Of a DNA stretch of 64,000 bases, positions 3,701-54,766 are shown piece after piece. The DNA is from Myxococcaceae bacterium JPH2 (GTDB lineage: Bacteria; Myxococcota; Myxococcia; Myxococcales; Myxococcaceae): the NCBI GenBank assembly GCA_016458225.1, contig JAEMGR010000005.1, forward strand, positions 310,001-374,000, in the 5' to 3' direction. A model generated the notes under the pieces. The model was not told the DNA's origin and made no database searches. It saw only the letters and a program-made list of their open reading frames with translations. A program made the position numbers and the translations under genes. Position 1 is the stretch's first letter. Each line of letters begins with the position of its first letter.

Positions 3701-3819
3701 GCACCGCCGCCGCGCGACCGCCGGCTGTCCGCTACCGACCGTTCGGCGCGACCCGACTCGGGGCCCCCTGGGAGCACGTCAGACTGTCCTGGCATGCTTC
3801 GAGAATTCCGGGGGCCTCC

Positions 3820-52332: not shown

Positions 52333-52524
52333 ATGCTGAAGCAACTGTGGGTGGGTGCCTCGCTGATGCTGGGCCTGGGGTTGGGCTTCGTCGCGGGAGG
52401 CCAGGAGCCCGCGGCCGCGGGCTGGAAGTGCACCATGAATTCTCAGTGCGACCGCGCCTGCGGCGCACCGCGATGTGGCATCTGCGACTACGAGGGCACG
52501 TGCTGGTGCGGCTGCATGCCGTAG
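52333..52524 (+). CDS. Small secreted cysteine-rich peptide (63 aa)
   Basis: A signal-like N-terminus (LKQLWVGASLMLGLGLGFVA followed by GGQEPAAAG) precedes a 34-residue C-terminal region with eight cysteines: GWKCTMNSQCDRAC, PRCGICDYEGTC and WCGCMP. The cysteine density suggests a disulfide-rich mini-protein exported to the periplasm or medium. ATG 52333 follows GGAGGAG. Function unknown; possibilities include a bacteriocin-like peptide, signal or metal-binding protein. It lies 72 bp after the DUF1772 gene on the same strand. Confidence 0.72.
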   Translation: MLKQLWVGASLMLGLGLGFVAGGQEPAAAGWKCTMNSQCDRACGAPRCGICDYEGTCWCGCMP

Positions 52525-52534
52525 CGGCACGTGA

Positions 52535-53494
52535 CTATCTCGCGGCGGCTCTCCTCTTCCGCCGCTCGAGGGAATGAGCGAAGCCATCGAGCAGGGCCGC
52601 CAGCCCCTGCTCGAACAGCGCATCGAGGTTCAGCGTGTAGCCCTCCGCGGGCAGCTCTCGCAGGAGGGCAGCGAAGGTCGGGAAGCGCCCCGACTCCGCG
52701 ATGGACTTCAACGCGGTCTCCTGGGTCGCGCCCCACTGGTCGTCCGACAGGCCCGTGGCCGCCTCGGCCTGGGCCTCTCGCTCCAGGTTGGCGGCGAGCC
52801 CCTGCATGTGACTGAAGAGCAGCACATGCGCGTCCAACAACGCCGGTCCTTCGAGTCGCAGGGCCTTCAGCGCGCGCAGCGACCACTCCGCATGCGACAG
52901 CAGGCCCGGCAGCGGCAGCGGCCTCGTGAGCGGGCTGAGCTGGGCCAACCACGGGTGACGCCGGAACAGCGACCACAGCGCTCGGCCCGCCAGCTCCAAC
53001 TGCGCGCGCCAGCCCTCGGGTGGAGCCTCGGGGTAGACGTACTCTCCGAACGCGGCGTCGGCCATGAGCAGGACGAGCTCCTCCTTGTCGCGCACGTGGC
53101 GATACGACGACATGGTCGACACCCCGAGCCGTGACGCGACGCCGCGCATGGACAGGGCGGAGAGGCCCTCGGCATCGGCCATCTCGATGGCGACGCGCAC
53201 GAGGCGCTCGCGCGACAGCTCTCGCTCGGGGTCCTCGGGAGGCCGAGGCGGCGGTGGCGGCGCGGGCACTCCGCGCGCGAGCACCACGATTCCGACGCGG
53301 GGCTCGCCACGCACCAACCCTTCCTGGTGCAGGACGTTGAGCGCCTTGGTCGCCGTGGCGAGCGCCACGCGCCACTTGCGAGCAATCTGCCGAGTCGACG
53401 GCAGACGCGCACCTGGCGCGAGGGCTCCGGAGGTGATGCGCCGCCGCAGCTCCTCGGCGATGCGCAGATAGGGAGGCGGCGTGGGCGTGCTCAC
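52535..53494 (-). CDS. GntR-TetR hybrid transcriptional regulator
   Basis: 319 residues from GTG 53492-53494 (MSTPTPPPYLRIAEELRRRI); the GTG at 53500 is an alternative but sits inside the likely ribosome-binding site. Residues about 1-75 are a GntR-type winged helix (SGALAPGARLPSTRQIARKW and LNVLHQEGLVRGEPRVGI). A Pro-rich linker (PAPPPPPRPPEDP) leads to a TetR-type HTH (about 95-140, MADAEGLSALSMRGVASRLG with STMSSYRHVRDKEELV) and a TetR C-terminal ligand/dimer domain (about 145-319). It therefore has two separate DNA-binding modules. It is divergent from an FAD monooxygenase, which it very likely controls, and its own start abuts a palindrome. Confidence 0.93.
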   Translation of the reverse strand: MSTPTPPPYLRIAEELRRRITSGALAPGARLPSTRQIARKWRVALATATKALNVLHQEGLVRGEPRVGIVVLARGVPAPPPPPRPPEDPERELSRERLVRVAIEMADAEGLSALSMRGVASRLGVSTMSSYRHVRDKEELVLLMADAAFGEYVYPEAPPEGWRAQLELAGRALWSLFRRHPWLAQLSPLTRPLPLPGLLSHAEWSLRALKALRLEGPALLDAHVLLFSHMQGLAANLEREAQAEAATGLSDDQWGATQETALKSIAESGRFPTFAALLRELPAEGYTLNLDALFEQGLAALLDGFAHSLERRKRRAAAR

Positions 53495-53506
53495 GGGCAC
53501 CTCGCC

Positions 53507-53564
53507 GCTGTCCTAGGACAGCCGTGCTCGCGCCGCGTCCAGACCATCGCTGTCCTAGGATAGA
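53507..53564. promoter_or_regulatory. Two CTGTCCTAGGACAG operators 42 bp apart
   Basis: GCTGTCCTAGGACAGC (53507-53522) is a perfect 16-base palindrome. A second copy, GCTGTCCTAGGATAGA (53549-53564), matches 14 of 16. Start-to-start spacing is 42 bp, four helical turns. The first copy abuts the regulator start; the second lies 17 bp upstream of the monooxygenase -35. Binding by the adjacent regulator is inferred. Confidence 0.65.
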
Positions 53565-53580
53565 TTCGCGTCCCGGCCAA

Positions 53581-53609
53581 TTGGCACCCCTCCGCGTACG
53601 TCGTACACA
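53581..53609 (+). promoter_or_regulatory. Candidate promoter of the FAD monooxygenase
   Basis: TTGGCA (53581-53586), 17-base spacer, TACACA (53604-53609), with the gene ATG 30 bp further on. The first GTAC-type repeat overlaps the -10. Confidence 0.4.
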
Positions 53610-53628
53610 TCACAGCGTACACCGTACA
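53595..53628. promoter_or_regulatory. CGTAC-NN-CGTACA direct repeats 21 bp apart
   Basis: CGTACGTCGTACA (53595-53607) and CGTACACCGTACA (53616-53628) match except at two central bases. Each contains a GTAC-N3-GTAC dyad. Start-to-start spacing is 21 bp, two helical turns. They overlap the likely -10 and start site of the monooxygenase gene, the place for a repressor. Confidence 0.6.
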
Positions 53629-53638
53629 GGGAGGCGAC

Positions 53639-54766
53639 ATGAAGACCGTACTGATTTCTGGGGCGAGCATCGCGGGGCCCGCGCTGGCGTGGTGGCTCCG
53701 TCACCATGGATTCGAGCCCACCGTGGTCGAGCAGGCCCCCGCGCCGCGACTCGGCGGACAGGCCATCGACATCCGCGGCGTCGCGCTCCAGGTCATCGAG
53801 CGCATGGGGCTCCTGGCCGAGGCCCAGCGGGTCCGCACTCGGATGAAGGGCATGTCCGTGTTGGATCCAGACGGGAACGAGCGGATGCGCACCGAGGAGA
53901 TGACCTTCAGCGCGGGCCAGCTGGACAGCGCGGACCTGGAGGTGCTGCGCGAGGACCTCACGCGCATGCTCCTCGAGCGGACCCAGCCCCAAGTGGAGTA
54001 CCGCTTCGGCGACTCCATCACCTCGCTCAGGCAGGACGCGCGAGGCGTGCACGTCGAGTTCAAGCATGGCCCCCCGCGCGACTTCGACCTCGTGGTGGGC
54101 GCGGATGGCCTGCACTCGAACGTGCGGCGCCATGCCTTCGGCCCCGAGTCACAGTTCGTGCGCCACCTGGGGACGCAGCTCGCCATCTTCCGCGCGGAGA
54201 ACTTCCTGGGCCTGGACCAGTGGCAGGTGTGGATGCGCGATGGCGACGCGGGCTTCGGCATCTATCCCGTGCGGGACAACACCGAGCTGCGCATCACCGT
54301 CGGCTTCGGCGGTGGGGCCCAGGACACGTCCTTGCGCGACCCCGAGGCCCAGAAGCAGCTCGTGGCCGAGCGGCTCGCGCACCTGCGCTGGGAGACGCCT
54401 CGCATCCTCCGCGCCATGTGGGACGCCCCCGACTTCTACTTCGACGCGATGGCCCAGGTGCACCTGGAGCACTGGTCTTCGGGGCGCGTGGCGCTGCTCG
54501 GTGACGCGGCGTGGTGCGCCTCGCCGCTGTCGGGGCAGGGCACCAGCATGGCCCTGGTGGGCGCCTATGTCCTGGCCGAGGAGCTGGCTCGCGCGCAGGG
54601 CGACTTCACCGGCGCATTCCGTCGCTACGAGGAGCGCCTGCGCCCCTTCATCGCGCTCAATCAGGCCCTGGCCACGGAGAACCCGGGCGGCCGGCCCTCG
54701 GAGGAGTCGCTCGCTCGGGCGAAGGACGCCATCTGCCTGGATGCCCCGGCCCCCGCGCCACGGTGA
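53639..54766 (+). CDS. FAD-dependent monooxygenase (TetX/PHBH-like)
   Basis: 375 residues. FAD motif SGASIAGPALAWWLRHHG (7-24, GxSxxG variant), the DG motif DLVVGADGLHSNVRR, and the GD motif GRVALLGDAAWCASPLSGQG of class A flavoprotein hydroxylases. Such enzymes hydroxylate aromatics, tetracyclines or rifamycins with NAD(P)H and O2. Closest in feel to TetX-like and related aromatic hydroxylases; substrate unknown. ATG 53639 follows GGGAGG. Controlled by the divergent GntR-TetR regulator through paired operators, which suggests induction by a substrate or drug. Confidence 0.92.
   Translation: MKTVLISGASIAGPALAWWLRHHGFEPTVVEQAPAPRLGGQAIDIRGVALQVIERMGLLAEAQRVRTRMKGMSVLDPDGNERMRTEEMTFSAGQLDSADLEVLREDLTRMLLERTQPQVEYRFGDSITSLRQDARGVHVEFKHGPPRDFDLVVGADGLHSNVRRHAFGPESQFVRHLGTQLAIFRAENFLGLDQWQVWMRDGDAGFGIYPVRDNTELRITVGFGGGAQDTSLRDPEAQKQLVAERLAHLRWETPRILRAMWDAPDFYFDAMAQVHLEHWSSGRVALLGDAAWCASPLSGQGTSMALVGAYVLAEELARAQGDFTGAFRRYEERLRPFIALNQALATENPGGRPSEESLARAKDAICLDAPAPAPR

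Follow-up and report, generated by a model that had tools for sequence, protein, structure and literature searches.

The window analysed here, a 64,000-nucleotide stretch of the genome of Myxococcaceae bacterium JPH2, contains a regulator gene that diverges from a gene for an FAD-dependent monooxygenase, and the short gap between them holds two unrelated pairs of palindromes (Table 1). The regulator joins two DNA-binding domains in a single chain. Its Pfam matches to GntR (E = 6e-14; 51.9 bits against a cut-off of 27 for PF00392), TetR_N (E = 7e-7) and TetR_C_1 (E = 2e-17) all exceed the curated cut-offs, which bears out the preliminary description of one protein carrying both a GntR winged helix and a TetR helix-turn-helix. 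In an AlphaFold model built on 51 homologues (mean pLDDT 93, pTM 0.71), the winged-helix elements of the GntR domain are visible, and a linker without secondary structure separates them from the TetR fold. By its TetR_N domain and the helical ligand domain that follows it, the protein is a member of the TetR family; by its N-terminal winged helix, it is also a member of the GntR family. None of the recognised GntR effector domains (FCD, UTRA, aminotransferase or YtrA tail) was found in the regulator, whose C-terminal part consists of TetR_N and TetR_C_1. The nearest solved structure to the TetR half is that of SimR (E = 2e-30 by sequence, 35% identity by fold), against which the model has a TM-score of 0.82 by target length. 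Just 3′ of the regulator gene, a short open reading frame on the plus strand (52333–52524) encodes a signal-peptide-like small protein rich in cysteine, ending GWKCTMNSQCDRACGAPRCGICDYEGTCWCGCMP.

The monooxygenase is related to tetracycline destructases. Like the Tet(X)-type enzymes it matches their NCBIfam model, but its 285.8 bits fall far short of the 550 bits set as the curated cut-off, and it does not qualify as a tetracycline destructase by this measure.

Table 1. Features of the regulator–monooxygenase locus (positions in the window).
Feature	Position	Strand	Basis
GntR–TetR fusion regulator, 321 aa, GTG start at 53500	52535–53500	-	Pfam and AlphaFold model
GntR winged helix, residues 10–73, recognition helix 47–59	53282–53473	-	Pfam PF00392; DSSP of the model
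Proline-rich linker, residues 74–96, least confident part of the model	53213–53281	-	pLDDT down to ~70
TetR_N helix-turn-helix, residues 101–144	53069–53200	-	Pfam PF00440
TetR_C_1 ligand/dimerisation domain, residues 157–308, SimR-like	52577–53032	-	Pfam PF02909; SimR matches
Motif A1, CTGTCCTAGGACAG, 8 bp from the regulator start codon, putative GntR-domain operator	53508–53521	.	
Motif A2, CTGTCCTAGGATAG, one mismatch, putative GntR-domain operator	53550–53563	.	
Putative −35 of the monooxygenase promoter, TTGGCA	53581–53586	+	TTG conserved relative to A2, 33 loci
Motif B1, CGTACGTCGTACA, overlaps the putative −10, putative TetR-domain operator	53595–53607	.	
Putative −10, TACACA (relatives: TACATT), 17 bp past the −35	53604–53609	+	Conservation
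Motif B2, CGTACACCGTACA, near +6, putative TetR-domain operator	53616–53628	.	
FAD-dependent monooxygenase, 375 aa, PRK05868-like, divergent from the regulator	53639–54766	+	

The gap measures 138 bp (53501–53638) instead of the 144 bp originally given, and contains two CTGTCCTAGGAYAG palindromes (motif A) and two GTACnnnGTAC palindromes (motif B). The start-to-start spacings of 42 bp for the A pair and 21 bp for the B pair agree with the preliminary description of two motif families, each present twice, although the second copy of A is imperfect, and B, of which there are indeed two copies, is better written as the palindrome GTAC-N3-GTAC than in the form first proposed. The SimR operator likewise has a core of the GTAC-N3-GTA type. 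In the 9-Mb genome the exact A 14-mer occurs once, and only three copies with one mismatch are present, one of which is A2. The double B pattern is found once in the host genome and once in that of a congener, in both cases at the regulator/monooxygenase locus.

A generic consensus promoter scan reported no promoter in the gap or the window. In the 33 aligned loci with an A2–B1 distance of 45 bp, a conserved TTG precedes TACATT by 17 bp, and the latter overlaps B1; the putative −35 and −10 elements of the monooxygenase were placed on the basis of this conservation. Relative to the start site that they would define, A2 is centred near −60 and B1 near −15. The earlier proposal that the second kind of motif covers the −10 of the monooxygenase agrees with this placement. 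Since B overlaps the putative −10 and the start region, it is positioned to block RNA polymerase, while the location of A1 right beside the regulator start fits autoregulation.

The same arrangement recurs widely. A scan of 85,000 genomes found relatives of the entire fusion at 80 loci, nearly all of them divergent to a homologous monooxygenase, and a search of the host's order added more. The 87 fusion/monooxygenase pairs that we analysed are mostly actinobacterial; the hosts comprise many actinobacterial genera, several Myxococcaceae and Dyella (Pseudomonadota). With scoring matrices (PWMs) that were trained on the same loci, A was found in 86 of the 87 pairs (two copies in 78) and B in 68 (two copies in 42), with both motifs in 67; in shuffled gaps, the corresponding frequencies were 0.3% for A and 1.1% for B. 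The survey of homologous regulator/monooxygenase pairs that had been suggested as a check on the first observation thus recovers both motifs, and does so in three phyla. The family consensus of A is CTGTACTAGTACAG, in which the CTG/CAG ends and the CTAG core are nearly invariant, and that of B is (C/T)GTACGNCGTAC(G/A); each usually occurs twice per gap. Most paralogous fusions that face other genes also retain both motif types. The surveys of exact sites described below involved no training on the scored loci and therefore provide an independent test.

These surveys show that A segregates with GntR domains. The exact A sequence occurs at only 10 sites in about 415 genomes, all just upstream of genes for GntR-domain proteins (seven fusions and three MocR proteins). 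Among 96 Myxococcaceae genomes, exact CTGTACTAGTACAG was found six times, always directly 5′ of a fusion gene, and never in a genome lacking one. Among 297 Actinomycetes genomes it was found three times: two of these sites precede MocR genes, and the third sits between the genes for a fusion and a monooxygenase. A further exact site lies upstream of a MocR gene in Actinoplanes. By Pfam, the three A-bearing MocR proteins consist of GntR and Aminotran_1_2 domains, and two Amycolatopsis genes for GntR plus UTRA proteins have GTGTACTAGTACAC and lack B. The operator is accordingly shared by GntR proteins of other architectures, and A tracks the GntR winged helix in proteins with three types of C-terminal part, namely the fusion, MocR and UTRA proteins. 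Judged by eye, a PSxR arginine and an ATAxK recognition helix are common to the owners of A, and GntR relatives without A often have no such arginine or no such helix.

The TetR-only relatives, which have no GntR domain, were examined in the same way. B is present at 17 of these 32 genes and A at none; about half therefore have no B at the threshold used. Separated by group, B occurs at 8 of 12 myxobacterial and 9 of 20 actinobacterial genes (A at 0 of 12 and 0 of 20); for the actinobacterial set, the frequency of B in shuffles is 1.3%. The GTACnnnGTAC operator of the fusion, a member of the SimR/ActR-like group by its TetR_C_1 domain, is thus shared with close TetR-only relatives, and B follows the SimR-like TetR domain. 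From the segregation of A with GntR winged helices and of B with SimR-like TetR domains we infer, with strong support, that each domain would read its own motif, as had been suggested at the outset.

One clade departs from this pattern. Mainly composed of Pseudonocardiales (Amycolatopsis, Kibdelosporangium and relatives), it accounts for 18 of 85 pairs and has kept A and the TetR domain but not the canonical B, which is lost or diverged there. The absence of one motif family from homologous loci had been named in the preliminary description as an observation that would contradict it; such absence is seen in this single clade only. Residue 131 of the regulator, a serine that presumably corresponds, by an alignment made by eye, to the DNA-contacting T40 of TetR, is Ser in 63 of the 67 pairs that have B and Ala in 17 of the 18 that do not (Fisher p = 3e-13, raw), an association that comprises only about three changes on the tree. 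For this reason, we downgraded covariation of the recognition helix as proof that the TetR domain reads B; the correlation is suggestive, a hint in that direction. At loci of the Amycolatopsis/Kibdelosporangium type (for example L041, L044 and L067), where canonical B is absent and the regulator carries S131A, other conserved sequences are present, such as TGTATGCGTCGTAGCGTACG in L044, and the TetR operator has possibly changed. B is also absent from the Corynebacterium plasmid pAG1 (NC_001415, locus L228, 3381–4433), on which a diverged fusion with two A sites faces a tetracycline-destructase-like monooxygenase (255 bits on the NCBIfam tetracycline-destructase model), adjacent to tetR/tet(Z). 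In the annotation the pAG1 regulator begins at 3756 and lacks its GntR domain, although the sequence upstream encodes that domain in frame.

Taken together, we infer that the fusion is probably a one-component regulator that reads DNA through two independent domains, in which B would serve ligand-released repression and A both autoregulation and anchoring. In a dimer of the TetR type, the pair of GntR winged helices would bind the CTAG-core palindromes A1 and A2, and the pair of TetR helix-turn-helices the GTACnnnGTAC palindromes B1 and B2. When no ligand is present, the B-bound form would repress the monooxygenase, and occupation of A1, beside the regulator's own start, may provide autoregulation. 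Binding of a drug-like compound in the TetR_C_1 pocket would then free the B sites, in the manner of SimR, ActR and TetR, and allow production of the enzyme; the GntR domain may stay on A as an anchor or may respond differently.

Other readings were weighed against this one. Both motifs are short palindromes, and they might have been chance or generic promoter features; the confinement of exact A to so few sites, all beside GntR-domain genes, together with the recurrence of A and B in most homologous gaps and their near-absence from shuffles, refutes this idea, to which we give practically no credence. Alternatively, only the TetR domain might matter, with A being read in trans by another GntR protein of the MocR/HutC type and the fused GntR domain being vestigial. 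MocR and UTRA proteins with the same type of site do exist elsewhere. However, exact A is found only beside fusion genes in the 96 Myxococcaceae genomes, and the CTAG-core sites examined across 22 actinobacterial genomes adjoin fusion genes, with one MocR exception. Furthermore, few parts of the fusion are as strongly conserved as its GntR recognition helix (V45, A46, A48, T49 and A50 are invariant), which argues against a vestigial domain. A trans-acting protein as the sole reader of A is disfavoured by the position of exact A beside fusion genes, and we regard this alternative as highly improbable.

The distances between the sites bear on two further possibilities. Across the family, A1 and A2 lie 21 to 58 bp apart (47 or 58 bp in most Streptomyces loci) without helical phasing (Rayleigh p = 0.22), and phasing of this pair was rejected as a family rule. 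Of 72 loci measured, 34 have A2 and B1 exactly 45 bp apart, and other clades have distances of 57–58, 67, 79 or 90 bp; phasing of this pair is borderline (Rayleigh p = 0.05). After release from B, the regulator could remain on A2 through its GntR domain and act as a class I activator of the monooxygenase, thereby switching from repressor to activator; the position of A2 near −60 of the putative start site and the strict 45 bp to B1 in most Streptomyces-type loci would suit such a role. The longer distances in other clades misfit a fixed activator position, and GntR and TetR_C_1 proteins are mostly repressors, which makes this switch unlikely. Phrased as a two-channel switch, in which the TetR half leaves B while the GntR half, anchored at A2, helps to recruit RNA polymerase, the change from repressor to activator is doubtful, though conceivable. 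The preliminary description had suggested possible bridging of A and B by the fusion, with looping of the promoter. Because two readers sit on one dimer, the fusion could in principle bridge the sites, and the exact 45 bp suggests a fixed geometry; this distance is also explained by the promoter that lies between the sites, with its −35 and −10 fixed. The phase between A1 and A2 is not kept and that between A2 and B1 is borderline. At 3.4 Å per bp, A2 and B1 are ~150 Å apart on straight DNA, whereas the linker of ~23 residues spans at most ~80 Å and would therefore be too short for one dimer to occupy both. Looping by the fusion is thus possible but not indicated, and we consider it quite unlikely. 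The reading with two independent readers, one for each operator class, is the one we retain.

To our knowledge, bacterial one-component regulators almost always have a single DNA reader. The nearest solved relative of the TetR half, SimR of the SimR/SimX pair from Streptomyces antibioticus (TetR family; PDB 2y2z, 3zql), is a ligand-released repressor with a divergent target gene and two operators in the gap (PMC5812520); it represses both divergent genes, and a polyketide releases it (PMC5812520; PMC3261101). The fusion locus resembles this system in its divergent target gene and two-operator gap. Nevertheless, SimR has an N-terminal extension without a GntR domain, and its single reader serves both operators, whereas in the fusion the TetR part follows a GntR domain, and the regulator side of the gap holds an additional, unrelated class of operator. 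GntR regulators of the MocR/HutC type have the same type of winged helix, and a CTAG-core palindrome is found at five of their loci (L140, L205, L206, L188 and L189); their C-terminal aminotransferase or UTRA fold binds no DNA, while that of the fusion would be a second reader. MocR motifs in general contain TGT/TGG groups in repeated boxes (PMC5320631). At three of the loci mentioned (L140, L205 and L206), exact CTGTACTAGTACAG lies 5–90 bp before the gene of the MocR-type regulator, and the palindrome is a candidate MocR operator class.

Xre-RES and other multi-domain regulators also have several DNA-binding units per regulator (PMC12204516), but these are identical units in a complex, in contrast to the two unrelated domains with two unrelated operators that the single chain of the fusion would unite. 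Engineered GntR–TetR chimeras join the same two family names; they are synthetic, use GntR as a part for gluconate-controlled dimerisation, and have no natural two-operator promoter (PMC10450161). In the open-access literature searched, we found no paper on a natural GntR–TetR fusion, its two operators or the A motif, in keeping with the initial statement that no described system of this design was known to its author, although the fusion is annotated in public databases, as 'TetR/AcrR family transcriptional regulator C-terminal domain-containing protein' or 'GntR family'. The GntR–TetR regulators are thus apparently a widespread yet undescribed family.

The significance of this family lies in its joining of two unrelated readers, each with what appears to be its own conserved operator, in Actinomycetota, Myxococcota and Pseudomonadota. 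The assignment of operators is now specific enough for testing with separated domains. If it is right, gene fusion can assign autoregulation to one operator code and control of the target to another, and synthetic circuits would gain an orthogonal part with two operators. The tetracycline-destructase-like enzyme and the link to tet(Z) on pAG1 suggest that the system may sense and inactivate drug-like polyketides.

Two further loci deserve mention. In the gammaproteobacterium Dyella kyungheensis (locus L061), the fusion, the monooxygenase, A and B are all present, which suggests horizontal transfer of the entire module. The host genome itself contains a second fusion/monooxygenase pair (locus L144, G000:C1:16262-17161), whose regulator is ~53% identical; this pair has two sites of the A type, CTGTACTAGTACAC and GTGTCCTAGCTCAG, along with a single B-like site, and the two regulators may therefore cross-talk.
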